Shown one piece after another: positions 214-16,062 of a stretch of DNA of 38,949 bases. This stretch comes from Kiritimatiellia bacterium (GTDB lineage Bacteria; Verrucomicrobiota; Kiritimatiellia; RFP12; UBA1067): positions 1 through 38,949 of the forward strand of contig JAGBTH010000051.1 of assembly GCA_017631385.1 (NCBI GenBank), given 5' to 3'. Below the pieces are notes generated by a model, which was not told where the DNA came from, did not search any database, and worked only from the letters and a program-made list of their open reading frames with translations. Position 1 is the first letter of the stretch, and the number at the start of each line of letters is the position of its first letter. Position numbers and translations under genes: made by a program.

Positions 214-1338
214 ATGAATGATAAAAAGATAGTTTTAGTTGTCGGTATGGGGACGTCTCCCGCGGTGATGACGGAGACGGTTTGGGCGCTTGCGCATCAG
301 AGTGACCCTGTTGTGCCAGATGAGGTTGTTGTTATAACGACGAAGTCTGGTAAGGACGCTTTGCGCACGGCGATTATGTCGGGTGCGCCAAGCGTATGGA
401 ATAGACTTAAAACCGCTCTCGCGAAAGAGAAGATCGCGATAGACGGTAAATTAGTTTTCGGAGATACTTCAATTCGGGTGATTCCAGACGCGGACGGGAA
501 TGAGGCGAGCGATTTGCGCACGGGCGCGGATAACATGCGCGCGGCGGACTTTATGCTTGGAGAACTACGCAAGTATACTGCGGATTCGGCGACTACTATT
601 CTCTGTTCTATTGCTGGTGGCCGCAAGACAATGAGTGCGCTTCTCTTTTCGTGCATGTCGCTTCTTGGGCGAGAGGAAGATAAAGTGTATCACGTGCTTT
701 TGCCGCCGGAGTTTGAATCTGGCACAGAACCGCCATTCTTCTTTCCTGAACCGGGTGTGACATACACATCTAAAAAGACCGAGAAGAAATACAGGGCGAA
801 AAAGATACAGAGTGAATTGTTTGAGGTGCCTTATGTGCGTATGCGCGGCTGGTATCAAGATAAGTTTAAGGGCGAACCGCCGAGCTACAAGTCGCTTATT
901 TCAAAGGTGCAAAGTGTTGCGCCCCCAGCCGTTGTATATCCTGAGATTGAGATTGACGCATGGAACGGATGGGTGAAGGTGAATGGCGCGGATGTTAAAA
1001 TGAGTCGGCCGTGTTTCGCTGCGTTATTGCTTTTAGCGAGTGGATGTGAACCGAAGAAGCTTCATGCGCGGCTATGTGAGCTTCATGCTCAACACGGTGC
1101 TGCAGAATGTGATTGGCTCTCTACATTTAGGGCTGGTACGCTTTTTACTAATCTCGATTTTGTTGAAGATCTCACAAAAACACTATCAAATCTTCGCAAG
1201 AGCTTGTCCGCGGCAGGTTTTCAAAATGTTGAAACACTTGTCCCGCAACGTTTTAGACCTGTGACATTTTTGATTTCCAACATTAAGTGGTCTAATAAAA
1301 AGAGGATTTTGATATGTAATGAGGAGAGTTCTAAATGA
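214..1338 (+). CDS. CARF-domain protein, Cas_NE0113/Csm6-type ring-nuclease family
   Basis: This 374-residue protein looks like the CRISPR-associated NE0113 family (TIGR02584/PF09623). The N-terminal CARF-like Rossmann fold shows GMGTSPAVMTET at residues 11-22 and the second ligand-loop motif CSIAGGRKTMS at 131-141. Such domains bind cyclic oligoadenylates made by type III CRISPR complexes, and some members degrade them. Residues about 245-350 (IEIDAW...VKVNG...LLLLAS) resemble a winged-helix domain, so it may bind DNA. The start at 214 is preferred over an upstream TTG at 178 because the -10 box lies between them. It overlaps the next gene by 4 bases (ATGA) and heads a four-gene operon. No cas10 or CRISPR array is visible, so any cyclic-nucleotide signal must come from elsewhere. 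Family assignment is fairly confident; regulator versus ring nuclease is open. Confidence 0.75.
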   Translation: MNDKKIVLVVGMGTSPAVMTETVWALAHQSDPVVPDEVVVITTKSGKDALRTAIMSGAPSVWNRLKTALAKEKIAIDGKLVFGDTSIRVIPDADGNEASDLRTGADNMRAADFMLGELRKYTADSATTILCSIAGGRKTMSALLFSCMSLLGREEDKVYHVLLPPEFESGTEPPFFFPEPGVTYTSKKTEKKYRAKKIQSELFEVPYVRMRGWYQDKFKGEPPSYKSLISKVQSVAPPAVVYPEIEIDAWNGWVKVNGADVKMSRPCFAALLLLASGCEPKKLHARLCELHAQHGAAECDWLSTFRAGTLFTNLDFVEDLTKTLSNLRKSLSAAGFQNVETLVPQRFRPVTFLISNIKWSNKKRILICNEESSK

Positions 1339-1949
1339 AAAGAAGATTGCAAATGGGTAAGGTTAAGCGAGTTAAAGATGCGGTTTGTGTTGCGCTTGGA
1401 GCTGTGTATAAAAATGAGTTTCGACTTATACAACAACAATGCCATGAATTAAATATTGTGGGTGCTTTTTATCATTATTTTAGGAGTATGTTTGAAAGAG
1501 ATTTTGAATCGTACTCTATTGATATGGAATATAGCCGCATGGGAGAAAGAAAAATGTCTAAGTCGATTAGTGTTTCAGCAGAGAAAAGGAAGTGTTCTTA
1601 CTGTCATGAAAAACATTCTCGGAGAGTTAGGTCAGATTTTATAATTCACAAGCCTGGTACGGATGATAATTTAGTAGTAATTGAGTTTAAAGGAGAATGG
1701 TCAAAAGGGTGCTTTGCGTGGGATAAAAAGAAATTACAGGAATTGACTAAGCCTCTATCAAGTCGTTCGGATACGGATGATTATGTATGTGGTTATCAGT
1801 TAGGAGTGTCAATTGTGTTGAATAATCAAAGAGTGGTGATGAGTTTTTATCCTGATAATAATGATAACGCAAATCTTAATTCGGAAGAGATATCGAAGGA
1901 TGAGCTGATTGATAGATATGAATCATATTTATCAAGGTCTGTTGAATGA
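1335..1949 (+). CDS. Small PD-(D/E)XK-type nuclease candidate
   Basis: The protein has 204 residues. The core R-S-D101-F-I-I-H followed 16 residues later by E117-F-K119 matches the D...ExK active-site pattern of PD-(D/E)XK nucleases. The hydrophobic strand YQLGVSIVLN follows at 154-163, as in many members. A CxxC...H cluster (C87, C90, H94) just before the first Asp could bind a metal. The gene starts inside the end of the CARF gene and has a GAGGAG ribosome-binding site at 1321-1326. It is probably the DNA- or RNA-cutting subunit of the operon. I do not recognise the exact family, and the nuclease call rests only on the motif. Confidence 0.6.
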   Translation: MKRRLQMGKVKRVKDAVCVALGAVYKNEFRLIQQQCHELNIVGAFYHYFRSMFERDFESYSIDMEYSRMGERKMSKSISVSAEKRKCSYCHEKHSRRVRSDFIIHKPGTDDNLVVIEFKGEWSKGCFAWDKKKLQELTKPLSSRSDTDDYVCGYQLGVSIVLNNQRVVMSFYPDNNDNANLNSEEISKDELIDRYESYLSRSVE

Positions 1950-1965
1950 TTAAAGGAGATTTCAT

Positions 1966-4900
1966 ATGTCGGATATTGGAAAAGCTTTTGACGAAAAATT
2001 CGGGCTGACAGGAGTTGCGATAGTTCCAAAATATAAAAAGTCGCATTGTTTTTCAAAGAAGAACGGTCCAAAGTTTCGTAACTCTACTAGGATTGAATTA
2101 TCTCCTTTTCAAAAGTCTTTTTGTGAATATTTAAGTTTGAATGCATACACGGATAATGGTGATATGCTTTATGAATTTATTGTAAAATTAACACAAGAGT
2201 GCGGTTCTGTTGTCCTGAAGGAAATTCGACTTTTGGATTTTGCGCGAATTGAACGATATATAACTGAAATCAATGGAAAGATGTCAGATCCTATTGAAGG
2301 ACATTTCAAAATTCATGGTAATTGGAGCTCTCTTAAGGAATTTACCGAAGATGGATATTATCGTATTAAATGGAGGTTTAAAGGAAAATCTTGTGATGTG
2401 GCGCTTGATTCGAATGTTAAAATACGAAAATTAGGTGCGAAAGATATTGTTAAATGTAAATATAATGCCGCAAAGAATATGTCTGCTGGTACGGCTAAAG
2501 ACATAAGTAAACTGCACGATACGCTTGATAAGCAATTGCAAGAAGCGGGAGAAGATGTATTTATCTATGAGCTTTTACAAAATGCGAATGATTATCCTTG
2601 CGGAAATGAAAAGGTTGATGCTGAATTCAGAATATGTCAAGATGAACATTGTTCAGGTTATTTGGCTTTTTGTCATACGGGATCAGAGTTTTCTGCTGCA
2701 AATGTAGCTGCTATTTGTTCTGCAAATGATGAAGATAAAGCTCATAATTTGAAAGCAATAGGATATAAAGGTATTGGGTTTAAAACGGTATTTAGATTTA
2801 ATGATCGTGTGGAAGTGCATTCTGGGGGGTATGGTTTTGCTTTTGACAAGGCAACTCAGAAGGAGAAAGCTTTTATACCATGGCGGACAACACCTGTTTG
2901 GGTTGGTCCAAAATGTTCTAAAGATTATCGTGTTGAAATACGGATGATGCCGCGCGACAGAAAGATGTTATCCGATGGATGCGGGTATGCGGCACAACTT
3001 GAAAGGTTGTTTTCCACAGAGCGTCCGCTATTATTTATACCAAATCTTAAGAGTGTAAGAATTAAAACATCGATTAATGGCGAAGTTATCAACAGAGAAG
3101 TTCGAGATAGTGAATGGTGCATTAGCGCTCAAATGATAGCAAAAGTTGATGATAAGATTCGTCAAAAAATAAATGAAGCATTGCTAGATGTTGATCATTG
3201 TCGTATTCCTCCAAAGTATAAGGATTTAGACAAAACAGCTATTTCCTTCGCTTGTCAACGTAATGGTCGAAACTTAATTCCAGAAGAGGATGGTTGTTTA
3301 TATTGTTATCTTCCTGCAAAAGACGCAAAGTGGGGATTTAGGTTTTTAATGAATACTGATATGATTCCAAATGGTCCTCGTAATGATATTGAGTATTCAT
3401 TGGAAGTTAATAAGTATTTTGCGAGAGTTGCAGGTGAGAAGTTTTTTGCGTGGATTGATTCGCTTATACGTTCTGGTGAGTATGACTATGATTCCATATT
3501 TGCATTGATACCCGACTTTGATGAGTGCAAGAAAAATAGAGCATCAGAGGTTGTTGAGTTCATTGAAGAATTTCAGGGTGGGTTTGAATCAAGATTGCTC
3601 GGGCTTCAGATTCCTTCATCGAAGAACAGTCTCGTTCCTGCTTCGGAAATCGCATTTGATTCTACAGGAATTCTCAAGGCATTTGGTGAGCCTGTATGGG
3701 AACGCCTTGGATATAGAGGTGCTGTCCCTCATAAGTTATTACGCGACAGCAAAGACTTTGATTCGTTTGTTAAGCGGTATAAGACATTGTTGAAGATTCA
3801 AGAGTTTGGTTTTGACGATCTTGTGAAAGCAGTAGGCAATGGGTCATTCCAGGAATGGCTTGAAAACCCGAATGCCAACCAACAGTTCTTTAAATATTTA
3901 GATGGTAAGGGTAAGATAGAACTGTTTAGGTCTGCTAGAATATTTCTCGATGACAAGAGGAGACTTGGTGCGCCGCAAGATATGTACTACCATCCAGATG
4001 TAGAAAAGTATTTGAAACCGTTTTCTGACTGTTTCCGGTATTTGCCCTCATCAGCGCCATGTTATGATAAACTTAGTAAAGACTGGTTCATTCCACTTTA
4101 TCCCAAGAAACTTGTTTGCGATATTTTGTTTTCCAGCGTTAACGAAGGGCGGACGCGTGAGCGGCTAAAAGATGTGTGCGCAGCACGTATGTTTTTTTGC
4201 TTTCTTGCAAAGTACAAAACTTATACTCGCACTTATACCGACTCTTACGTCTATTATGGACGACAACGTATGCGACAAGTGCCAAAGCAAGAGGAAAGGT
4301 TTACACGAGAATTTCTTGAAAAACTTCCTGTCGTTCTTGAAAGCGGCGAAGCCGTTACTGCAATTGTTACTGCTGAGTATTCTATTTTTCTTCCCGAACA
4401 AGTAGCTGCACAATCTGTTGTTGCAAATTACCGTTGGATTAATCATGGATGGGTGCGTTTTCTAAATGATGGTTATTTTGATTGTGAAGATGGCAACTCG
4501 ATCCGGGAATGGTTCTTGGAAGACCATGGGCAAGGAAATAACGCATGGAAACTTGTTCATGCATGGAATACAAGAGATGTATTGTCGGCAATCGCCGACA
4601 AGTTTAAAAGCGATATTCGCAGAAGAATAATTGATTTGCGAAACGATCTTGGATTTTATGATTTCATCAGCAAATGTATAGATGAGAGATGTATTAATTT
4701 GGGCTGGGTAAAGCAACAGTTGTCAGGGTGGCCAGTACTTGATGGTGGCGAGGTGATTGTAGAAAGTTCAGATAAGGTAATGTTCTACAGTAACAGTAGC
4801 ATATTGCACTGGGTGAACTCTGGCTGGCTTGATGATATGGTTCTCGTCTTAAATGAGAGGTATTCTGCACAAAAGAAGTTGTTCGATGTTTTGGGTGCGC

Positions 4901-7512
4901 AAGAGTTTGAGGAAGGAAATTTTGGAGAGATATTTAGGACATTGCTTGCGCCGCATTTAAATTTGGATTCGCGTGAGAAGGTGATAGCATTCCATCGGTT
5001 CATGGCAACGAAGAAGGAGTCGTTCGTCAGTACCAATCAGATAGAAGTACTTAAGAGGTTGCCCACGCTTATTAGTGGGGATGAGAACCCGACTGATGGC
5101 CTTGATGGGGTGTATCTTCCGACTAAGACTAAGATTGATATTGACAGCGAGATTGCGGCAGGATACATTTCTACGGAAATCAAGGTCCTTGATGATGCTC
5201 TTTGTGACGATGGTACGATGGAGTATTGGAAGTGGCTTGGGGTTAAGTCTTTAAATGAAGTGGAAATACTAAAGAAGCGTCTTGAAAAATATCTTGGAAT
5301 CCAAAAGGAGTTTACAGAGAATGGTGCAAATGATGCAACCTTCAAGGAATATCATATAGGATTGATTAATACATTGGCTTCTAGCGATGTGCTGCAAACG
5401 CTCAAAGATAACGGATGCGGTGACTTGATAGAAAAAGTTCGGTTGTTCTCAAAAGGTGGCGAATTGCTTTTGCCGACCGAAATGAGATGGTCGAAAGAAT
5501 ATCACCCATTGTGGGATTTTGAGTCGTTCAACAGTGGTGGTGTCTATACGTCGGAGATGTACTGTGGGATTGAAGGAATAAAAGAACTCTTCAAGGAGCT
5601 TGGTATCAAAGATAAGTTCTCGAAATCGGATGTTGCGTTGCTGGCGAACAAGGAGTTCTGTGAATATTTTTGGAAGAACTATCTACTATTGAATGAGTCG
5701 GAGTGGGATAAAGTTAAAGATTACCTTAATGCGGACTTGCCGTGCGTGTTGGATAGGCGTGGCGTAGTACGTAAGCCTGAAGAACTTTATCATCTTGAAA
5801 TCGAAGATTATGTTTTGAAGTTGCCCGATAGCGAATCAAAGTTACCGATGGTAGATGGGATGGACAAGAATCGTCTGTCGCAACTTGAAATGAAAACAGC
5901 CTTGTCTGTCGGAGACTCATTGGCGTTTTTACTTGCCGATTCAGATTGTAAGATGTACAAGATGCGAGGCAAGGTGTTGGAGTGGATTGCAAAGGGGGGT
6001 GCTACGGCATCCTGTGATTTGGTTGATAAATATAGAAGCGACGAACGTGCCAAATGGCGGAACGGGCAGAAGGATTCTGTGAGTGTCAAAGAGCTGTGTG
6101 CTATTCGTCGGAAGAATTCCGGGCAGGTCCGGCTTTTTGCAAGTGACCCACACGTTATGGATTTGACTGGGCTTGGCATTGGCGGCGACGGTCTTGATGC
6201 CATGCGGACCGAAGTTGAGAAGGCGCTTGTGTGGTTAGGGGTTAAATTAGTTGATGATGGCAGCATTGAAATTGAGCCGGCTAATGAAATTGTAAAAAGT
6301 GATAAAGTGATATCTGATATTGCGGTACGAATGCTAGTGTTTCTTGCCGAACGTTATCCTGACGGGTGGGAACAGGAATTCTCTGCTGTCTATTCACGAC
6401 TTAAGGATTTTAAATTCATCAAATGTAGTGGTTTGATCGTTCGCTGCAAGGACAATGATTGGTTGCGTGCTGAACACGGCACTTTTCTCTCTAAAGGTGA
6501 TAGTATTTACTTTGTCGAGGATTGGCAAAGCAAATTCGTATATGGTGATATGGTTGCCGAATTATGGGAGAAAGCTTGCAAAAAGCAATACTCTCTTGAC
6601 GATCTCAAAATGGCGCTTGATACAAGTGGTGGAGACTATCAGTTGGTCAAAAGGATAGTGTTGGACAAAAAGAACTTGTTGGATGATGAACAGTTCGTGC
6701 AGACGCTAAAAGAGCAATTTCCAAATGTTCACAGTATGGTATGTGATTGGTTGCGCGAAAAGGAATGCGCGCCCACTCCATCGACAGATAGCTTGAATGA
6801 TAGACAAGCCGTTGTAGAAGACACTCAACCATCCGGCGAAGAAAAGGAACAAAGCGAAGCGCCGATCCACGAACCAGAGATCAAGAGAAACTACTCTGAA
6901 GATGAGCAGGAACAGATGTTCCGCATATTCGGGAACGGATTGACGGTGGACCAGATGAACGATGAGAACCGCTTAGTTTGCATTCGTTTGTTCAATAGTC
7001 TGAAGGCACAAGGATATGAACCTCGGATGTTAGAAGCGGATTTCGTTCGGGATGTCTATGATAACAGGAAGACGTTTCGCGCTTCCACAATAGAAACTAA
7101 TGATGGACGACAGATACATGTAATCAGTGCCCGCAAGGGAGTTGCGTATTTGCCGCCAAGATGGTGGACGCGTTTGGCAGAGCCCAATAACACTAAGTAT
7201 GTTGTATGTGCAGTGTTGAATCATCTGCCAGATGGTTTTAAGTATTTTAGATGCCGTGACGATTTGTTGACGGTAATAGGTGATAATCTTGGTGTCATAC
7301 GGGTTCATGGAGAAACGGCGGAATCACGCTTAGATCGCACCCTGCGTTTGTTTGAGTTTGATCCCGAGCTTTCTGATTTCAGTATATATTCTCTTTTGCG
7401 TGTGAAAGCTACTTGTAATTATGATGCTGCATTTAAGGAGGATATGAAGTTTGCTGATTCTATAGGCCGCGAAATGGGCGTGGAAGAAGAGCAAGATAAC
7501 GATGCTTATTGA
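1966..7512 (+). CDS. Giant sacsin-like (Hsp90-type GHKL) ATPase protein
   Basis: The protein has 1848 residues. The N-terminal part carries a Bergerat-fold ATP-binding domain of the sacsin type: the N-box ELLQNANDYP (202-211), the loop FCHTGSEF (about 235-242) in place of the usual DNGxGF, and the glycine motif IGYKGIGFKTVF (265-276). The remaining ~1500 residues show no family I know. The last ~150 residues, after an acidic linker (about 1610-1640), resemble a PD-(D/E)XK or NO VEIN-like alpha/beta fold, but a clear catalytic set is missing. Sacsin-like ATPases recur in bacterial defence islands; their exact role is little known. A strong AAAGGAG site precedes the start. It lies 16 bases after the nuclease gene and 9 before the helicase gene, so the proteins probably form one complex. 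It is visibly more AT-rich than the housekeeping genes. Confidence 0.75.
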   Translation: MSDIGKAFDEKFGLTGVAIVPKYKKSHCFSKKNGPKFRNSTRIELSPFQKSFCEYLSLNAYTDNGDMLYEFIVKLTQECGSVVLKEIRLLDFARIERYITEINGKMSDPIEGHFKIHGNWSSLKEFTEDGYYRIKWRFKGKSCDVALDSNVKIRKLGAKDIVKCKYNAAKNMSAGTAKDISKLHDTLDKQLQEAGEDVFIYELLQNANDYPCGNEKVDAEFRICQDEHCSGYLAFCHTGSEFSAANVAAICSANDEDKAHNLKAIGYKGIGFKTVFRFNDRVEVHSGGYGFAFDKATQKEKAFIPWRTTPVWVGPKCSKDYRVEIRMMPRDRKMLSDGCGYAAQLERLFSTERPLLFIPNLKSVRIKTSINGEVINREVRDSEWCISAQMIAKVDDKIRQKINEALLDVDHCRIPPKYKDLDKTAISFACQRNGRNLIPEEDGCLYCYLPAKDAKWGFRFLMNTDMIPNGPRNDIEYSLEVNKYFARVAGEKFFAWIDSLIRSGEYDYDSIFALIPDFDECKKNRASEVVEFIEEFQGGFESRLLGLQIPSSKNSLVPASEIAFDSTGILKAFGEPVWERLGYRGAVPHKLLRDSKDFDSFVKRYKTLLKIQEFGFDDLVKAVGNGSFQEWLENPNANQQFFKYLDGKGKIELFRSARIFLDDKRRLGAPQDMYYHPDVEKYLKPFSDCFRYLPSSAPCYDKLSKDWFIPLYPKKLVCDILFSSVNEGRTRERLKDVCAARMFFCFLAKYKTYTRTYTDSYVYYGRQRMRQVPKQEERFTREFLEKLPVVLESGEAVTAIVTAEYSIFLPEQVAAQSVVANYRWINHGWVRFLNDGYFDCEDGNSIREWFLEDHGQGNNAWKLVHAWNTRDVLSAIADKFKSDIRRRIIDLRNDLGFYDFISKCIDERCINLGWVKQQLSGWPVLDGGEVIVESSDKVMFYSNSSILHWVNSGWLDDMVLVLNERYSAQKKLFDVLGAQEFEEGNFGEIFRTLLAPHLNLDSREKVIAFHRFMATKKESFVSTNQIEVLKRLPTLISGDENPTDGLDGVYLPTKTKIDIDSEIAAGYISTEIKVLDDALCDDGTMEYWKWLGVKSLNEVEILKKRLEKYLGIQKEFTENGANDATFKEYHIGLINTLASSDVLQTLKDNGCGDLIEKVRLFSKGGELLLPTEMRWSKEYHPLWDFESFNSGGVYTSEMYCGIEGIKELFKELGIKDKFSKSDVALLANKEFCEYFWKNYLLLNESEWDKVKDYLNADLPCVLDRRGVVRKPEELYHLEIEDYVLKLPDSESKLPMVDGMDKNRLSQLEMKTALSVGDSLAFLLADSDCKMYKMRGKVLEWIAKGGATASCDLVDKYRSDERAKWRNGQKDSVSVKELCAIRRKNSGQVRLFASDPHVMDLTGLGIGGDGLDAMRTEVEKALVWLGVKLVDDGSIEIEPANEIVKSDKVISDIAVRMLVFLAERYPDGWEQEFSAVYSRLKDFKFIKCSGLIVRCKDNDWLRAEHGTFLSKGDSIYFVEDWQSKFVYGDMVAELWEKACKKQYSLDDLKMALDTSGGDYQLVKRIVLDKKNLLDDEQFVQTLKEQFPNVHSMVCDWLREKECAPTPSTDSLNDRQAVVEDTQPSGEEKEQSEAPIHEPEIKRNYSEDEQEQMFRIFGNGLTVDQMNDENRLVCIRLFNSLKAQGYEPRMLEADFVRDVYDNRKTFRASTIETNDGRQIHVISARKGVAYLPPRWWTRLAEPNNTKYVVCAVLNHLPDGFKYFRCRDDLLTVIGDNLGVIRVHGETAESRLDRTLRLFEFDPELSDFSIYSLLRVKATCNYDAAFKEDMKFADSIGREMGVEEEQDNDAY

Positions 7513-7521
7513 GGAGCTAAA

Positions 7522-9861
7522 ATGAACGAGACGCTGACAAACTATACTTACTTTTTCAAGGACCAGATACATGAAATGCTTGCCGAGTATCGGCGGTTGC
7601 TTCGTGCGCCAATTAAGCAATTGGTAGAAAACGATCAAGTTTACTATGCGACGGTACATGGCATAAGCGAGGAACGCGGACATGTGGTATTCCGTTTCGA
7701 TAAGGCGAATACACCTCGTTTAAAAGTCCAGAGATCGTTCGTGCTTATTAAGCGGTCGGCCCGTGAACGTTGGGGTGAGTCTCCGCGCAGCTGGAATTGT
7801 TCGTTCGAGGAGTTTTTGTGCAAGGCGGAATTTCATTCGTCTTCTTCCTATGTTTTACCATTGTATCATCTTGGCGGCAATGATCCCCAGGGCGCGATTG
7901 TTGGTTGCTCATCCGTTGGCTCAAGGATGTTCAGAAAGATAAAGGGTGCGTTGACGGAAGGGATTAAACTGCATGTTTTAATGTTTGAGTCTGAGCCTCC
8001 AACGCGGTATCTGGCGAATCTCATTGACTATATTGAGAAGAATCCAGATGACGGTGTGCTGATGTGCAGACCGGCCATTCGCTATGACGAATGGAAGCCA
8101 CAACTGTTGGCATATAATCCAAAGAATGCGGACGTAATTTCAAAGACGTTGCTAAACGCCTTGATGGAGAAGGGTAAAATCGTTCTACAAGGTCCGCCTG
8201 GCACAGGCAAGAGTTTCAATGCCGCACAAGTGATTGCAGATTATCTTGCAAATAATAAGTCTGTTTGCATGGCGGCGATGGCCAATAAAGCCTTGATGGA
8301 GCTTATACTGCAACCGCCATTGTCGAGTTACTTGGCGGCTGGGAAGTTATACAAGACCATGCTGACGTCTGACGAGTCCCTGTCTGCAAAAGGGCTAAAG
8401 GATGCAGAGTCTGACTTTGTTGCGCCCAAAGGGTCGGCGGTATTTGCAACATATTATAAAGTCTCTAGTCAGTTTAGACATATCAAGGAGGCTAATTGGG
8501 CGCCTTTGTATGATCTTGTTGTTGTTGAGGAGGCATCGCAGGCATATTTGACAACCATCGCTGCGCTGCTGCGGCTTGGAACGAGATGTCTTGTCGTTGG
8601 CGATCCAATGCAACTTGCGCCGATTGTTGTTGCAGAGGACAAACCAGAGTACAATCGTTGGAATGCGGTGACACAGGCTGATGGTTTGACATCGTTTGTG
8701 TTGGGATCTAGTGTAGACAGTTTTAGAATTACAACCACATTCAGATTGACGCCAGCATCGGCTGAATTGACCGGCGTTTTCTACGGAAATACACTTAGGT
8801 CTGTTGCATCAAACAAACTCGATTGGCCAAGGATTGACAACCGTTATTTCCCGGCCAGCGGAGGCGTTGTCTTGGAAGTGTTGTCTGGTGGTGAAGATGG
8901 TGTTCTTTCCCCGGCTGCAGTTAAGGTTCTTGGGATTGTACTTGACAAGATCGAGTCAAACTTTGCAGATGCTAGAGTCGCGGTTATTACACCGTTCAAG
9001 GATTCTGCGAGAGCTATACAAAGGCGGTTCGCCATAGCGGGGCGCAACTTGGACTTGTCAATTGAGACAATAGATCGTGTACAGGGAGCAACGGTTGATT
9101 ATGCAATTCTTTATTTCCCGCTACGCAATGTAGCTTTCTCGTTTGATGAACGACGGTTTAATGTTGCAACAAGTCGTTCACGTACAACTACGCTGATATT
9201 GAGTGATTATGAATTGTTGGAGATGCGGTCTATAACGGGCAGGGTGAGAGAGTTTTTAGAGAAGGTGAAGGGTGTTTATAGGGATACGTTTCCAGATGAT
9301 TTAGATAAGCCAAGGTCAAAATTAATACAACCATTGACAAAAAATATTGTAGAATTGTCTTCTAAGCCCACGCTCGCCGATGTTCAATCGTTGTTGGACA
9401 AGCTTCAGGCTCGCTTGGCATTGTGGCTCCAAGCATGGCTGGATATTATCCATCCAATCAATCTCTGGCAGAATGCAGTTGTTCCAAATCTAAGTTCATT
9501 ACAATTACAGAACTCTAAAGATGACGGAGCCAAGCAAATTGTAGATTTAGATTTAACCGCATTGCTTTCCGTGTTTATAGGCAATTTTAGAGCGTTGCGT
9601 TCGAGGGCGCACATTAAGTCGGAAATGCAAACTATGGCTTTTCATATAAAGGACGTTCGTCATGATTACGCGCATAAGAAGACAACCGTAATATTGAATG
9701 TTGAACCCAAGACGTTGCAATACCATATTGACACGATGACACGTTTCTTAGATGGGCTTTCTGAAATGCCTCTTGAGATAGAGCTTTCGAAGCCAGCTGT
9801 CGTGATAAAGAGGAGCGGTATTACAATAACAGCATCATCACATTATGAAGCTCGAAAGTGA
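7522..9861 (+). CDS. UPF1-like SF1 helicase with C-terminal HEPN-like domain
   Basis: The protein has 779 residues. The superfamily 1B helicase motifs are in order: Walker A GPPGTGKS (224-231), Walker B VVVEEASQ (333-340), motif III GDPMQLAPIV (360-369), motif IV TTTFRLTP (404-411), ETIDRVQGATVDYAIL (515-530) and the arginine motif RRFNVATSRSR (544-554). This is the DNA2/UPF1 (AAA_11/AAA_12) type, acting on single-stranded nucleic acid. Residues about 615-745 look like a Swt1-type HEPN domain, ending in DVRHDYAHK with an R713-X4-H718 motif, the usual HEPN RNase active site. So the helicase may carry its own RNA-cutting part. The start has a GAGGAG site 6 bases upstream. It is the last gene of the four-gene operon. 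Confidence 0.85.
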   Translation: MNETLTNYTYFFKDQIHEMLAEYRRLLRAPIKQLVENDQVYYATVHGISEERGHVVFRFDKANTPRLKVQRSFVLIKRSARERWGESPRSWNCSFEEFLCKAEFHSSSSYVLPLYHLGGNDPQGAIVGCSSVGSRMFRKIKGALTEGIKLHVLMFESEPPTRYLANLIDYIEKNPDDGVLMCRPAIRYDEWKPQLLAYNPKNADVISKTLLNALMEKGKIVLQGPPGTGKSFNAAQVIADYLANNKSVCMAAMANKALMELILQPPLSSYLAAGKLYKTMLTSDESLSAKGLKDAESDFVAPKGSAVFATYYKVSSQFRHIKEANWAPLYDLVVVEEASQAYLTTIAALLRLGTRCLVVGDPMQLAPIVVAEDKPEYNRWNAVTQADGLTSFVLGSSVDSFRITTTFRLTPASAELTGVFYGNTLRSVASNKLDWPRIDNRYFPASGGVVLEVLSGGEDGVLSPAAVKVLGIVLDKIESNFADARVAVITPFKDSARAIQRRFAIAGRNLDLSIETIDRVQGATVDYAILYFPLRNVAFSFDERRFNVATSRSRTTTLILSDYELLEMRSITGRVREFLEKVKGVYRDTFPDDLDKPRSKLIQPLTKNIVELSSKPTLADVQSLLDKLQARLALWLQAWLDIIHPINLWQNAVVPNLSSLQLQNSKDDGAKQIVDLDLTALLSVFIGNFRALRSRAHIKSEMQTMAFHIKDVRHDYAHKKTTVILNVEPKTLQYHIDTMTRFLDGLSEMPLEIELSKPAVVIKRSGITITASSHYEARK

Positions 9862-9903: not shown

Positions 9904-9917
9904 TGCGGATATCCGCA
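9904..9917. promoter_or_regulatory. 14-base palindrome, possible operator of the RT cassette
   Basis: TGCGGATATCCGCA is a perfect palindrome, flanked at 894-899 and 919-924 of the same block by AGATAT and ATATCT arms. It lies about 35 bases before the proposed -10 box of the reverse-transcriptase cassette. It could bind a dimeric repressor; no candidate regulator is adjacent other than the CARF protein. Confidence 0.35.
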
Positions 9918-9950
9918 GATATCTTAAGTCACATATTGCAATTGAAGATA

Positions 9951-9959
9951 TGCGATAAT
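9951..9959 (+). promoter_or_regulatory. Extended -10 promoter of the RT cassette
   Basis: TGCGATAAT fits the extended -10 pattern TGnTATAAT seen elsewhere in the window, with one change in the hexamer. TTGCAA at 9936-9941 is the only -35-like string and is too close. Transcription would start near 9966, about 38 bases before the first small ORF. Confidence 0.45.
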
Positions 9960-10003
9960 ACTCTCGCAATCGTCAAAGAAGGCGATGCAGAAAGGAGCTA
10001 ATA

Positions 10004-10087
10004 ATGCGAGAGTTCTGGGTAACTGTTGGAGCAATGGTGCTAGGGTATATTCTTTATCTTGGGATCAAGTCGATGTCTAAGAAATAA
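10004..10087 (+). CDS. 27-residue membrane peptide
   Basis: This tiny ORF begins MREFWVTVGAMV and ends in GIKSMSKK. One hydrophobic helix spans about residues 5-21 and a lysine-rich tail follows, so a single-span membrane peptide is likely. A near-ideal AAAGGAG site lies 6 bases before the ATG, which strongly supports translation. It is the first gene of the cassette that continues with a second membrane peptide, a folded RNA and a reverse transcriptase. Its size and charge pattern recall small membrane toxins such as TisB, but there is no visible sequence relation. Confidence 0.65.
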   Translation: MREFWVTVGAMVLGYILYLGIKSMSKK

Positions 10088-10104
10088 GGACAAGGGGGCG
10101 TATT

Positions 10105-10182
10105 ATGTTAATACAATACATTGCTGCAGCAATGATTGTCGCGTTAATAGGAATTATCGTGGCAGTTATTAAGCGGAAATGA
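10105..10182 (+). CDS. 25-residue membrane peptide
   Basis: The ORF begins MLIQYIAAAMIV and ends in AVIKRK. Residues about 3-22 form one hydrophobic helix, followed by a basic tail. AAGGGGG at 10092-10098 lies 6 bases before the start. It sits 17 bases after the first peptide gene, and its stop codon is only 4 bases before the folded RNA. Its last codons (AAGCGGAAA, 10171-10179) are complementary to TTTCCGCTT inside that RNA (10301-10309). The pair with the same layout suggests two subunits or two variants of a membrane effector. Confidence 0.65.
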   Translation: MLIQYIAAAMIVALIGIIVAVIKRK

Positions 10183-10186
10183 TTTT

Positions 10187-10330
10187 ACGGAGGGGGCGGG
10201 CGAAGGGCTTGCTACCGTGGGTAGCTATTAGTCCGGGGCTTAGGGATGTAGGTTGAAAAGCCTGCATTCTCCTGGGAGATCGAAAGTCGAGATCGAAAAC
10301 TTTCCGCTTCGCCAGCGCCCCTCCGTTTTT
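10187..10330 (+). ncRNA. Structured RNA upstream of the reverse transcriptase
   Basis: A long closing stem pairs 10187-10205 with 10307-10326: 18 base pairs, with one bulged G (10196) and a two-base bulge (10314-10315). Inside are a hairpin with arms GCTACC (10211-10216) and GGTAGC (10220-10225), and a hairpin with arms ATGTAGG (10246-10252) and CCTGCAT (10261-10267). There is also a tandem 10-base repeat GAGATCGAAA (10276-10285 and 10289-10298). The closing stem runs into TTTTT (10326-10330), so it can also act as an intrinsic terminator that ends the RNA before the reverse transcriptase. No ORF crosses it. Position and structure fit an RNA partner or template of the reverse transcriptase. 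Confidence 0.75.
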
Positions 10331-10337
10331 AGGTAAT

Positions 10338-10343
10338 ATGTAA
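10338..10343 (+). promoter_or_regulatory. ATG-TAA start-stop just before the RT gene
   Basis: The bases ATGTAA lie one base before the RT start codon at 10345. The only Shine-Dalgarno-like string, TAGGT (10330-10334), is closer to this start-stop than to the RT start. Ribosomes may be held or lost here, keeping RT levels low. Confidence 0.3.
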
Positions 10344-10344
10344 T

Positions 10345-11889
10345 ATGAAATCGTTTGAAGATTATTTTTCGTTTGAGGCGATACTAGGCGATCTTGTCCG
10401 ATGGCGTGTAGCTGGCAAGAAAGGTGTCGACTCAGTATTGCCGCCGCGTAAAAGTTGGATGCGCGATGGGTATGCTTCGCGTAAGAAGATGTCGCCAGAA
10501 TCGGTTCGTCGTCGTTCTATTTTGCGTCGTGTCAATTATGAGCGCTCTCAAGGGATGATGGAGCAGATTGAATGGGGTCAGAAATTGGTGGCGCTTGTAG
10601 CGAATATTCAAAGCGCAGTGATGGGAGGCAGCGTTAAGTTTGAAGCGCCACGTATGATTCAAATTCCCAAAGGGCTTAAGAATGGGGTGATGGAATATCG
10701 TAATGTTGCTTCGTTTGAACGCCTTGAGGATAGGCTTATTTTAAGTCGCGCTACTGCTTATGTGCGCGATGTTTTAGAAGATGTATTGCATTCTAATTGT
10801 TATTCGTTTCGGGTGAATAGAGAAGTTTCGCATAAAAAGGCGATAGCGGATTTGCAGAGTTGGAGAAAGCGGTTCGCGGCAGAAGAGATGTGGGTCGCAG
10901 AGTGTGATATAAAGAAGTTTTTTGATAATATTTCTCATGAGTCTGTAAGAAGAGCGTGGCGGAGGATTGGTATTGATAAATTCGATTCTAGGGCTGAACG
11001 TATTCTGGACGCATATTTAGATGTGTTCTCATCTACCGAAGGTGTAAAACGCGGCATTCCTCAGGGAGGGTCGTTTTCGACGGTGCTCGCCAATTTAGTT
11101 TTGCATGAGGCAGATTCAGCAGTTCTTAATAATGCGGATGATAAACTGTTTTATGCGCGGTATTGCGATGATGTAATTATTGTAAGTCCTAATAAAGAAG
11201 ATTGCGCGCATGCTATCGAGGCGTATGCTGAAGTGTTGTGTTCAATTGATTTAGAGATGCATCCAATTATGCCGTTTGAGTATCTCCCAGGTGATGATGC
11301 ATCTACGAAGTATTACTCGATTAAAAGCAAGGGACCCTTCGCTTGGCGAAATGCAGATGTTAATGAAGAGGATGTAGCGCCGTGGATTTCGTTTTTAGGG
11401 TGCCATATCAAGTTTAATGGGGATACTCGTATTCGTAAGGAGTCCATAGAAAAACATAAGCGCTCTTTAGGTCAAGAAACAGCAAAAGCGGTTTGCTCGA
11501 TTAAGCGAGGTGAGCTGTCGGGCGTGTCGCTAGCTAATCGCCGCGCATGGTTCGCGTGGTTTAGAAATCGCCTTATCGCGAAAGGCGTAGGGTCTGTGAC
11601 TCAGAAGGTGAGTGATTGCGATATGTGCTGGGCCGGAGCATTTCCTCATGTCACAATTTGCAAAGAAACTGAAATGCAAATGCGTATGTTGGATAGGGTG
11701 CGTGAAGGGCTGCTTTTGAAGGTTTGGCGAATGGTTTCTGAGAGTTTTCCAAAGTCCTACAGAGAAACTAGGCATAAATTCAAAGGGCGTCCATACAGTT
11801 ATTACGCGTTTTTGCATAAAGCAGTGCGTCCATCGAATATGGCATTTTTGAGGCGAGCGGCGCGTACTTTGCCGTATTCTGAGTTATAA
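10345..11889 (+). CDS. Reverse transcriptase of defence-associated (UG/DRT-like) type
   Basis: The protein has 514 residues. The RT core shows the first catalytic Asp in AECDIKKFFDNISH (D188), the RT4 motif GIPQGGSFSTVLANL (237-251), the active site YARYCDDVII (D275, D276) and WISFLGCHI at about 347-355. RT0/RT1 features RNVASFERLEDRLI precede. A C-terminal extension of ~115 residues (W402 to the end) has no domain I know. No endonuclease, maturase X/D or integrase part is seen, and the retron NAxxH and VTG motifs are absent. It therefore resembles the unknown-group RTs of phage defence rather than a group II intron or a retron. Its leader is the folded RNA and the two peptide genes. The ribosome-binding site is poor. 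The UG subgroup cannot be set by eye. Confidence 0.85.
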   Translation: MKSFEDYFSFEAILGDLVRWRVAGKKGVDSVLPPRKSWMRDGYASRKKMSPESVRRRSILRRVNYERSQGMMEQIEWGQKLVALVANIQSAVMGGSVKFEAPRMIQIPKGLKNGVMEYRNVASFERLEDRLILSRATAYVRDVLEDVLHSNCYSFRVNREVSHKKAIADLQSWRKRFAAEEMWVAECDIKKFFDNISHESVRRAWRRIGIDKFDSRAERILDAYLDVFSSTEGVKRGIPQGGSFSTVLANLVLHEADSAVLNNADDKLFYARYCDDVIIVSPNKEDCAHAIEAYAEVLCSIDLEMHPIMPFEYLPGDDASTKYYSIKSKGPFAWRNADVNEEDVAPWISFLGCHIKFNGDTRIRKESIEKHKRSLGQETAKAVCSIKRGELSGVSLANRRAWFAWFRNRLIAKGVGSVTQKVSDCDMCWAGAFPHVTICKETEMQMRMLDRVREGLLLKVWRMVSESFPKSYRETRHKFKGRPYSYYAFLHKAVRPSNMAFLRRAARTLPYSEL

Positions 11890-12904: not shown

Positions 12905-12972
12905 ATAGACTCTTGATGAATGTGTTCTAAATAATTTCAGGAGAGGTGAGTAAAATAGGAGGAGGTAAAAGT

Positions 12973-13473
12973 ATGATAAATAATAATAATCTTGAAAAAG
13001 TGGCGGAGTTGAAATCAAAGCCTGGGGCTGTGCGTTCTAATGTCGCAACGCAGTTGGAAGGGGTAGAGCGCTTCGTTTCAGCACAGAAGGACATTTGGGA
13101 TGTGGTCCTTTCTGAACTTCGGGCAGGAGAGAAGCGTGGGCATTGGATGTGGTACATTTTTCCGCAGATTATCGGCCTTGGTTGTAGTTATATGGCGAGA
13201 AGGTATGCAATACAGGATATGGCTGAAGCACGGGAGTATCTGTCGCACCCTGTACTTGGCACGCGGCTTCGCGAGGCGATGTCTATGGTGCTGACGCATC
13301 GCGGCAGAAAGATGCCAAGGGATATTTTCTCCGATATTGATGCGTTGAAGTTGCGCTCATCGGCAACGCTATTCAATATCGTATCTCCTGACGATGTGTT
13401 TAAGGAGGTGCTTGATGTCTTTTATGGCGGGAAGCCTTGCGAAAAGACGCTTGCGATTCTGGGATTATCTTAG
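12973..13473 (+). CDS. DUF1810 family protein
   Basis: The protein has 166 residues. The hallmark string GHWMWYIFPQIIGLG (56-70), then ARRYAI and EAREYLSHPVLGTRLREA, matches the DUF1810 family, a small alpha-helical domain of unknown biochemical function. The ATG at 12973 is preferred over a GTG at 12946 because AGGAGG stands about 7 bases before it. The first ~28 residues are an extra tail before the family domain. Members are found sporadically in bacteria, which fits an accessory region. Confidence 0.8.
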   Translation: MINNNNLEKVAELKSKPGAVRSNVATQLEGVERFVSAQKDIWDVVLSELRAGEKRGHWMWYIFPQIIGLGCSYMARRYAIQDMAEAREYLSHPVLGTRLREAMSMVLTHRGRKMPRDIFSDIDALKLRSSATLFNIVSPDDVFKEVLDVFYGGKPCEKTLAILGLS

Positions 13474-13543: not shown

Positions 13544-13637
13544 CAGCGGGAGTTATGTCCGTGTTGGCAAAATAGTAAGACTATCGGTTTCGAGTATGTT
13601 TTCTAAAATGAGAATCTTATGCGGAAAATTCTTGAAT

Positions 13638-13662
13638 GGGGGTGGGGATGGGGGAATTAGGG
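13638..13662 (+). other. G-quadruplex-type G-run cluster
   Basis: Four G runs (5, 4, 5 and 3 Gs) are separated by loops of 1, 2 and 5 bases, which fits the standard G-quadruplex pattern. It lies about 175 bases before the main pbpC promoter. Confidence 0.35.
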
Positions 13663-13809
13663 TGGTAATTGTATGATTTGGGCGATTGTGCGGGTATTAT
13701 TGGGTTGCGGTTTAAGGGGTATAATTCCTAGAGTAAGTGATTTTTTGTTTTCTTTTGTAAAAAAATGCGAATTTTGTCAAAATGTGTGTGGATGATAGGT
13801 GAGAATTGT

Positions 13810-13817
13810 GGTATAAT
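13810..13817 (+). promoter_or_regulatory. Extended -10 promoter of pbpC
   Basis: TTGTGGTATAATTCC contains TGG plus a perfect TATAAT (13812-13817). A near copy, GGGGTATAATTCC, stands at 13716-13728. Transcription from the nearer one would give a leader of about 65 bases to the pbpC start. Confidence 0.6.
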
Positions 13818-13887
13818 TCCGTAAGAGATTAAGACGATGTGAATAGTTGAATAAATATGGCTAGGACAGTCGAGATAACTAGGAGAA

Positions 13888-16062
13888 ATGATTAAAAAAC
13901 TACTAAAAATATTCAAAATTTCAATTTTTGCGGCATTTGGTGCCGCGCTGATATTTATTGTATTATCGTTTGCTCTTATTTCTTGGAATGATGAGGGCTC
14001 TGAGGATTATGCTGGTGGTGTTATTTTGCGTGATGCTGCGGGTGAGGTAATGCGCGTTAGCCTTGGCGAGGGTGATGTTGATTGTAGGCCTTATTATCTC
14101 GCTCATGAGGATGATTGGATCGTTAAAGCGCTTGTTGCTTCTGAAGATGGTGAATTTTGGTCGCATTATGGCGTCAGACCCCTTAGTATGATTCGCGCTT
14201 TTTTTCAGAATATGTTTTATGGTAAAAGGATTTCAGGCGCTTCGACCATTACTATGCAGGCCGTGCGACTTATTAAGCCTCATCCTAAAACGATTTGGTG
14301 GAAGTGGAAAGAAGCTGTCAAGGCCGTTAAAATGGATTTTAAGAAGTCTAAAATCTGGATTCTTTCGCAATATTTGAACCGTGCGCCTTTTGGAGCTAAC
14401 TTCGTTGGTATTGAGGCCGCGTCGCGCGGTTGGTTCGGTAAAGCGCCTAAAGAACTAGGTATTGGTGAAGCTGCGATGCTCGCTGGTATGGTGCAGGCGC
14501 CTTCGCGTTTTCGCCCAGATAGAAGATATGAGCGAGCGTTTAAACGTCGCGAATACGTTCTTAATCGGATGAAAAAATTAGGCTATATTACTGAGGAACA
14601 ATGTTCCGCCGCGCGTAGTGTTAAGCCTGTTATTTGTCGCTCTCCTAGACCTTTTAAACATCCGTATTTTTGTGATTATGTTTTAGCGAGTTTAGGTAAA
14701 GATCGGACACTTCAGAAGAAAAGCGGGATAATCGATACTGCTCTTGATGCTGATATTCAATCAATTGTTAGCTCTTCGGTCGATAGCGCGGCTAAGGAAG
14801 GCGGATATTCCGTAGCGGCGGTTGTTATGAAAGCTTCAACAGGTGATGTAGTCGCTCTTCATTGTAGCGGCGATTACTTTGGGGGTAAAGACGGCCAGGT
14901 TAATACTGCTCTTTCGCCGCGGCCAGCGGGCTCAACGCTTAAGCCCTTTCTCGCAGCTCAGGCGATGGATTTAGGCTTCGTGACGCCTTCTACGCGCCTT
15001 ATGGATTCGCCTATGTCGGTTAAGGGTTATCGCCCTGCTAATTTCGATTCGGCTTATCGCGGGCGTGTTACGTTATCTGACTCGCTTATTCTTTCGCTTA
15101 ATATTCCCTTTGTTAGGCTGGCGGCTAAAATTGGCGTTGAGCGCTTTGCCGATAAGTTGCGTCAGCTCGGGTTTAAGCATCTTAATGATAATGATTTAGA
15201 TTCAGGTCTAGGTATAGCCATTGGTAATGTAGAAGTGACTCTTGTTGAATTGACGAGCGCTTATCAGAAGTTAGCTAGTGGTGGGGGTGGTATTTTTTCG
15301 CGCGAATCTAGTTTTTTAGTTTCGGAGATTCTTTCAGGTCAGGAGCGCTCGAGCGCGGCATTGGGCCATATAGCTGATGTTGTAACATCGCGCTTTGCAT
15401 GGAAAACCGGAACATCTAGCGCCTATCGCGATGCTTGGACGGTAGCGTGGAATCCGGAATATGTAATCGGCGTTTGGTGTGGGCATAAGCGCGGCGGATT
15501 TGGCGATAAGACGCTCGTTGGCGCGAAGGCGGCTGCTCCTCTTTGTTGGAAGATAGCGCGGCAGCTTTATCCCCAGAATAACGGGCCATGGTACGTAAAG
15601 ATGGGGACTATAAAAGAGGTTGATGTTTGCTCCTTAACGGGCGAGATAGCCTCGCAGGATTGCCCTAAGAGAGAAAAGGGCGATTTTATTTCGGGCGTAA
15701 GTTCGCCGCGACCATGTTCGAGCCATAGGCTAGGAGCTGATGGTGAGGTCATAGAGCTTGATGAAAGTAAGAGTGAGCGGTTTAAGATTCTATCTCCCGA
15801 GAATGGCGCGAAATTTCAGCTCGTTGAGGGCACTCTTCGTGAGCGGATTGTCTTTCGTGCTCATAATGTTAAAGAGGGCGAAGAGCTTTGGTGGTTTGTC
15901 GACGGAGTTCAATGCGGTAAGACTAAGGCATTGGAGCCGTTTATATATGAGATGGAAGTAGGTTCGCACACGGTTCTCGCGGTGAGTGCTGCTGGCGATT
16001 CATCTAAAGTTGATTTTGAAGTTTTAAAAGGTAATCTTAATAGAGAGGCTAATAATAAATGA
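13888..16062 (+). CDS. pbpC: Penicillin-binding protein 1C (bifunctional glycosyltransferase/transpeptidase)
   Basis: The protein has 724 residues. It builds or repairs peptidoglycan from the outer face of the inner membrane. A transmembrane anchor lies at about 10-32. The GT51 glycosyltransferase domain shows EDGEFWSHYG (catalytic E86) and GASTITMQ (117-124). The transpeptidase domain has STLK (S349 nucleophile, K352), SLN (403-405) and KTG (506-508). The C-terminal ~100 residues match the BiPBP_C domain found only in PBP1C-type proteins. The AGGAG site lies only 2 bases before the ATG, closer than usual. Its stop overlaps the alpha-2-macroglobulin start by 4 bases, the conserved partner arrangement. 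Confidence 0.93.
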   Translation: MIKKLLKIFKISIFAAFGAALIFIVLSFALISWNDEGSEDYAGGVILRDAAGEVMRVSLGEGDVDCRPYYLAHEDDWIVKALVASEDGEFWSHYGVRPLSMIRAFFQNMFYGKRISGASTITMQAVRLIKPHPKTIWWKWKEAVKAVKMDFKKSKIWILSQYLNRAPFGANFVGIEAASRGWFGKAPKELGIGEAAMLAGMVQAPSRFRPDRRYERAFKRREYVLNRMKKLGYITEEQCSAARSVKPVICRSPRPFKHPYFCDYVLASLGKDRTLQKKSGIIDTALDADIQSIVSSSVDSAAKEGGYSVAAVVMKASTGDVVALHCSGDYFGGKDGQVNTALSPRPAGSTLKPFLAAQAMDLGFVTPSTRLMDSPMSVKGYRPANFDSAYRGRVTLSDSLILSLNIPFVRLAAKIGVERFADKLRQLGFKHLNDNDLDSGLGIAIGNVEVTLVELTSAYQKLASGGGGIFSRESSFLVSEILSGQERSSAALGHIADVVTSRFAWKTGTSSAYRDAWTVAWNPEYVIGVWCGHKRGGFGDKTLVGAKAAAPLCWKIARQLYPQNNGPWYVKMGTIKEVDVCSLTGEIASQDCPKREKGDFISGVSSPRPCSSHRLGADGEVIELDESKSERFKILSPENGAKFQLVEGTLRERIVFRAHNVKEGEELWWFVDGVQCGKTKALEPFIYEMEVGSHTVLAVSAAGDSSKVDFEVLKGNLNREANNK

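Follow-up and report, generated by a model that had tools for sequence, protein, structure and literature searches.

A putative CARF-winged-helix regulator, its candidate box and two linked defence-type units in a Kiritimatiellia bacterium

Most of what is known of CARF domains concerns the reading of Cas10 signals. What, then, is the role of a CARF protein that stands with defence-type genes outside type III CRISPR? The question is raised by a stretch of 38,949 nucleotides (hereafter the window) from a Kiritimatiellia bacterium, which is contig C50 (JAGBTH010000051.1) of a 2.02-Mb metagenome-assembled genome (MAG) in 183 contigs, 74% complete. An earlier note, made from the sequence alone, had described four genes with gaps of 16 bases or less at its left end and suggested a defence system led by a cyclic-nucleotide sensor. 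Indeed, all four are intact open reading frames on the plus strand and tightly packed, with a 4-bp overlap (ATGA) between the CARF gene and the nuclease candidate, followed by gaps of 16 and 9 bp. That gene list holds, and it overlooked a box, a promoter and a reverse transcriptase (RT) unit lying directly downstream (9907-11889). We propose, with modest confidence, a defence locus of two units under the control of a transcription factor, made of CARF and winged helix, that no longer belongs to type III CRISPR.

The CARF gene (214-1338, with an in-frame TTG start option at 178) encodes 374 amino acids. Its product scores 160.1 bits against TIGR02584 (cut-off 80.65) and 213 bits against PADLOC CARF5, and by these profiles it is a true member of the CARF5/NE0113 family. 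The CARF domain spans residues from about 5 to 205, and the protein has the candidate ligand-site motifs GTSP, DLRxxxDN and SIAGGRKTM; the pocket motifs are kept among the CARF members outside type III loci and altered in the one at locus L066. With scores well over cut-off and conserved pocket motifs, the assignment to a cyclic-oligonucleotide-sensor family in the earlier note stands. Whether the ligand would itself be a cyclic oligonucleotide seems to us evenly balanced.

The C-terminal part, from about residue 241 to 360, resembles an OmpR/PhoB-like winged helix. A Pfam search of this region gave nothing convincing, so the assignment relies on profile-to-PDB comparison and fold rankings. 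A profile of 20 CARF sequences matched OmpR/PhoB-type DNA-binding domains with its C-terminal part; when this part was used alone, the top six PDB matches were ArlR, SaeR and RstA, all of the OmpR/PhoB type (E 0.04-0.3). The AlphaFold model of the C-terminal part, made from two sequences, is modest to poor (mean pLDDT 55.3) and has the order beta-beta-beta-alpha-alpha-alpha; its first 29 structural matches, each at E > 0.8, are DNA-binding domains of the OmpR family, from response regulators and from EmbR. The two rankings, weak singly, are mutually consistent and look like a winged helix. A CARF model from two sequences was poor (mean pLDDT 48.8). Judged from its sequence, the protein is most likely a transcription factor and not an effector, in line with the regulator role that the earlier note offered as one option.

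A precedent is Csa3, an archaeal CRISPR regulator with a CARF domain and a winged helix. A 2022 paper (PMC9704534) names it as the sole CARF effector without nuclease activity, or CARF-HTH regulator, to have been characterised by experiment; it binds cA4 (PMC8699464). The window protein likewise joins a CARF sensor to a winged helix. However, it is bacterial, its C-terminus is OmpR/PhoB-like, its presumed box is a direct repeat, and type III CRISPR was not found in its genome. No Csa3 model was among the PADLOC or NCBIfam matches of the window CARF.

The second gene (1335-1949, 204 amino acids) encodes a PD-(D/E)XK nuclease candidate in which D101, E117 and K119 are invariant across two to three divergent homologues; the residues agree with the family proposed by the earlier note, while the profile match itself (PADLOC PD-Lambda-3_A) is weak, at 34 bits over 120 residues. 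For PD-lambda-3, the named system closest to it, a PD-(D/E)XK domain is given (PMC10952713). The window protein has a candidate motif of this kind and a weak likeness to the A subunit, and differs in the shortness of the match and in its partners. The third product, a sacsin/HSP90-type ATPase of 1848 residues (1966-7512), carries an ELLQNAND box and a GYKGIGFK box, scores 69 bits against the sacsin N-terminal domain NF047352 (cut-off 50) and matches TmtA of Tiamat (PADLOC PDLC03972) at 277 bits, in agreement with the family already named for it. Tiamat is a one-gene system. The window ATPase belongs to the same profile family, but its operon of four genes also has a CARF protein, a HEPN helicase and a small partner, which is the nuclease candidate here and another protein elsewhere. 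The fourth product (7522-9861) is a Upf1-like SF1 helicase with AAA_11 and AAA_12 domains, whose nearest solved relatives are SEN1 and UPF1. As had been suggested from its RX4H end, its C-terminal part, searched alone, matches the Swt1-type HEPN domain (HEPN_Swt1, 29.9 bits; cut-off 27.5) and has R713-x4-H718 intact, also kept in the relative G444 described below. From what is known of these families, cutting of nucleic acids by the four-gene set is predicted. At another locus (L059:6317-7876) a CARF gene adjoins a fusion of a methyltransferase-like part with a HEPN_Swt1 domain, the latter 31% identical to the C-terminal part of the helicase.

The likely promoter of these four genes lies directly before the CARF gene, with a -10 hexamer TATAAT (TTTTGGTATAAT) at 198-203 on the plus strand; the string TTTGGTATAAT/TTTGGTATACT of this promoter is also found 5' of CARF in L051, L059 and L046. 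Further upstream, at 100-128, there is a perfect inverted repeat of 10 bp, AGTAAACGAA-N9-TTCGTTTACT, of which a half-site recurs at 22-29. Beside it, near the contig end, AGTAAACGNACGT is repeated within 22-34.

The contig ends only 213 bp upstream of the CARF start. The earlier note's statement that no cas genes are near therefore holds within the window and applies to one side only, since the upstream side lies beyond the contig end. Searches of whole genomes extend this view. Neither Cas10 nor RAMP was found in the window's MAG or in the genomes G444, G441, G471, G485, G396 and G136, with G202 as a positive control for the RAMP search (its CARF adjoins a truncated Cas10-like ORF). Of the 162 genomes of the order, 24 have a CARF above the TIGR02584 cut-off, and 15 of these also carry Cas10. 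In the CARF tree the window protein falls into a clade of six (support 98/97), five of which lack type III neighbours (window, G444, G441, G471 and G396), while the sixth, that of G436, has them. The lack of Cas10 and RAMP and the composition of this clade argue for a departure from type III. As first suggested, the CARF gene leads a defence-type locus in the MAG and in G444, with no type III CRISPR found in either genome. To the CARF5/Cas_NE0113 proteins of type III loci (TIGR02584) the window CARF shows full-length homology, with up to 66% identity and the same motifs; it differs in heading an operon unrelated to CRISPR. The type III locus of G426 has two diverged CARF5 genes (L046:3657-4661 and 13629-14825).

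On the source of the signal the original suggestion was not supported. It had implied a cyclic nucleotide made in the cell, but no Cas10, RAMP, SMODS or mCpol was found in the MAG (74% complete) or in G444 (90%), so that neither holds an evident source of the type of Cas10, CD-NTase or mCpol. SMODS was absent from the genomes tested with the exception of G471, and mCpol from nine of nine. The sensor-led idea is partly supported, with the CARF as leader and regulator; a source of cyclic nucleotides turned up in neither genome.

The closest parallel to the locus is in G444, Kiritimatiellae bacterium RGIG2398, from goat ileum, where it sits mid-contig. The order is CARF (62% identity), an unrelated protein of 201 amino acids, the ATPase (45%), the helicase (79%), an AlbA_2 gene, the box and the RT (56%). 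Among the 162 genomes of the order only these two carry the ATPase and helicase together, and a scan of 84,980 species, which detects close relatives only, found no further carrier; no pair lacking a CARF gene, which would have spoken against the grouping, appeared in these searches, the sole other pair having one. Close-relative scans of viral contigs found no ATPase, helicase, nuclease or CARF, and phages gave no match to the locus genes searched. The two ATPases are 53-76% identical over residues from about 1000 to 1800 and mostly 26-54% between about 200 and 1000, and the first 180 or so residues are replaced in G444 by about 518 with a cold-shock-like stretch. The unrelated second gene and the divergent ATPase front suggest an exchangeable module between a conserved CARF and a conserved ATPase back and helicase.

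Exchange is wider still across the clade, whose CARFs head at least four unrelated operons. Besides the nuclease (or other small partner), ATPase and helicase of the window and G444, the cargo consists of a weakly DUF2971-like gene and others in G441, a HEPN-methyltransferase-like gene plus an SF1 helicase in G471, and AAA_15 and PDC-M16 genes with a UG39 RT in G396. G485 has a similar PDC-M16/RT set with a CARF from outside the clade. Operons of the PDC-M16 type with an internal UG39 RT lie behind or near CARF genes in two families of the order (L060:2257-12509 and L053:7212-19900). The idea that the CARF gene is invariably the first of its operon was rejected, as several relatives have overlapping genes upstream. 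A known parallel is BrxR/CapW, a kind of regulator found at the head of many different defence operons; the CARFs described here are alike in this respect, and differ in having a CARF domain instead of WYL and another DNA-binding domain.

What would such a regulator bind? CARF loci are marked by a rare box, GGATRTCYGCRGATRTC, a tandem repeat of 10 bp. It sits at the 3' end of the CARF gene in G396, G471 and most of the type III relatives, in the latter ahead of the cas genes; beyond the cargo it is found in the window, G444, G436, G471 and G485. A whole-genome scan of the window's MAG found a single site, GGATATCCGCAGATATC at 9907-9923 (plus strand), 45 bp after the helicase. G436 and G471 have the box at two places each, all at CARF loci, and seven of nine CARF-free genomes of the genus have none. 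There are exceptions: single sites with one mismatch lie within other ORFs in G172, G441 and G444, and in G440 a box stands upstream of a UG39 RT with no CARF, on a contig that ends 1.8 kb beyond the box. Two simpler readings of the box were rejected. It is not mere code for the peptide DICGYL, since there are intergenic copies and that of L062 lies past the CARF stop codon; nor is it a terminator, as the operon strand has no T-run at most distal copies.

At 18 of 21 physical sites the box is followed, at a distance of exactly 30 bp, by a hexamer that agrees with TATAAT in at least four of six positions. The sites are partly homologous and so not fully independent, which makes p-values optimistic, although most of their spacers are unrelated; at other offsets the mean count is 1.3 (maximum 6), and at random positions the frequency is 4%. 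The -35 region is poor at most sites (2-4 matches of six), as expected of activated promoters. In the window the hexamer is GATAAT (9954-9959, plus strand), exactly 30 bp past the box, again with a poor -35. Tandem repeats of 10 bp suit PhoB/OmpR-type domains, and we therefore propose that the CARF protein would bind the box; that it is a transcription factor acting there is probable. The box precedes the downstream unit and not the nuclease, ATPase and helicase genes, and none stands before the CARF gene.

The downstream unit is on the plus strand. It begins with two hydrophobic peptides, of 27 amino acids (MREFWVTVGAMVLGYILYLGIKSMSKK, 10004-10087) and 25 amino acids (MLIQYIAAAMIVALIGIIVAVIKRK, 10105-10182), both shared with G471, where they follow the distal box. 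Counting the stop, 22 of 28 and 17 of 26 positions are identical, and most nucleotide differences, 11 of 18 in the first and 14 of 24 in the second, are at the third position of a codon. Next comes a structured RNA (10187-10326; z = -5.05), in which 16 of 45 pairs show compensatory changes across six UG39 loci and which has no Rfam match, and then a UG39-group RT (10345-11889; PADLOC RT_UG39, 352 bits), syntenic in G444. The window enzyme is a UG39 RT of the DRT list by this match, and is set apart by what precedes it: a structured RNA, membrane peptides and a box linked to CARF. A literature search found no paper on UG39 RTs. The second box of G436 is followed by a membrane peptide and an ORF that by eye is like cas1, and the box of G441 by an ORF that by eye resembles an ADP-ribosylglycohydrolase.

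In the proposed model, the promoter directly before CARF would drive the first unit. Sensing would likely fall to the ATPase together with its small partner and exchangeable front, the PD-(D/E)XK protein being the likely DNA cutter and the HEPN domain the likely RNA cutter. A nucleotide ligand linked to infection would bind the CARF, and the PhoB-like domain would act at the tandem box that follows the helicase gene, altering the firing of the promoter with the poor -35 and most likely switching it on. The membrane peptides, the structured RNA and the RT would then be made. The sequence itself shows the genes with their motifs and conservation, the box with its fixed spacing, and the conserved peptides and RNA; from these we infer binding of the box by CARF, the way control works, the ligand and an anti-phage role. 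That both units form one system is reasonably likely. The model is favoured by the same arrangement in RGIG2398 (CARF-x-ATPase-helicase-AlbA_2-box-RT), the OmpR/PhoB-type matches of the C-terminus, the placement of the box, the -10 at 30 bp and the single box in the MAG. Counting against it are the imperfect pairing of box and CARF (G440), an exact gene set at two loci only, a MAG 74% complete, the lack of a ligand source and two poor structure models (48.8 and 55.3).

Some of the same evidence can be read differently. The CARF could be a ring nuclease or ligand sink limiting a signal, with a winged helix that merely dimerises and a box serving another regulator. NCBIfam does call TIGR02584 'CRISPR-associated ring nuclease Csm6', and the 20-sequence profile weakly matches the Cad1 CARF (E 0.0036) and the ring nuclease Crn1 (E 0.055-0.98). 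However, with no ligand source found in these genomes there is nothing evident to degrade, and in most relatives the 3' end of the CARF gene contains the box, a tandem repeat fitting a PhoB-like domain; we consider this role unlikely. It is similarly unlikely that three things working separately, a UG39 RT, a CARF on its own and a system like Tiamat, have piled up by chance in a defence island. G461 has a UG39 RT (87% identical) without CARF, and genes of the ATPase type are seen beside other partners; against this, the order is common to two species, the CARF is translationally coupled to the next gene and the MAG's only box sits between both units.

The box might instead be a recombination or insertion site for swapping cassettes behind the CARF. 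Boxes flank the cargo on both sides in G436, G471 and G485, and the CARF C-terminus is replaced at the box position in the window, G444 and G441. This is quite improbable, since the distance to the -10 hexamer is fixed at 30 bp despite unrelated spacers, the orientation of paired boxes is inconsistent and no recombinase was seen beside the locus. Still less probable is that type III genes are present in the host and were missed in assembly, as the contig end, the incomplete MAG and the 66% identity to type III-linked CARFs might suggest: in G444, which is 90% complete and where this locus is in the middle of a contig, neither Cas10 nor RAMP was found, and G441, G471, G396 and G485 likewise lack both.

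The two-unit reading with a CARF transcription factor may have a wider meaning. It is possible, though we hold this only tentatively, that a CARF-winged-helix lineage left type III CRISPR and became a portable master switch of Kiritimatiellae with its own box, controlling exchangeable cassettes (type III cas genes, cas1, HEPN-helicase, RT, membrane peptides) and answering a signal that is not from Cas10 or a known CD-NTase. CARF homologues are abundant outside CRISPR-Cas (PMC12669027), and CARF-nuclease proteins occur there as stand-alone genes or within other defence systems (PMC3710099). What seems new is a CARF-winged-helix clade over several unrelated operons, with a box at fixed spacing and a linked RT unit, part of which may already stand in the 2020 CARF classification. 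If true, a Cas10-independent CARF regulator with a definable box makes CARF signalling outside CRISPR testable, and also how multi-gene defence cassettes stay silent until needed. The box is a simple handle for finding the CARF regulon, and the locus ties a UG39 RT to a covarying RNA and hydrophobic peptides.

Some smaller observations concern the surroundings of the RT unit. In G471 the peptide pair forms a distal unit without RT (L059, from 1523 downwards, minus strand). The boxes of G444 and G485 are followed by related acidic peptides of 52 amino acids (FDDFDYD...YWNTH; L072:2873-3031 and L134 from 2831). Copies of the structured RNA lie upstream of UG39 RTs at L072:3034-3182, L092:3133-3283, L093:592-745, L094:602-745 and L097:243-395. 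Finally, a DUF1810 protein (12946-13473) adjoins the RT unit in the window, and ORFs that by eye resemble ADP-ribosylglycohydrolases stand beside the RT in several other UG39 loci.
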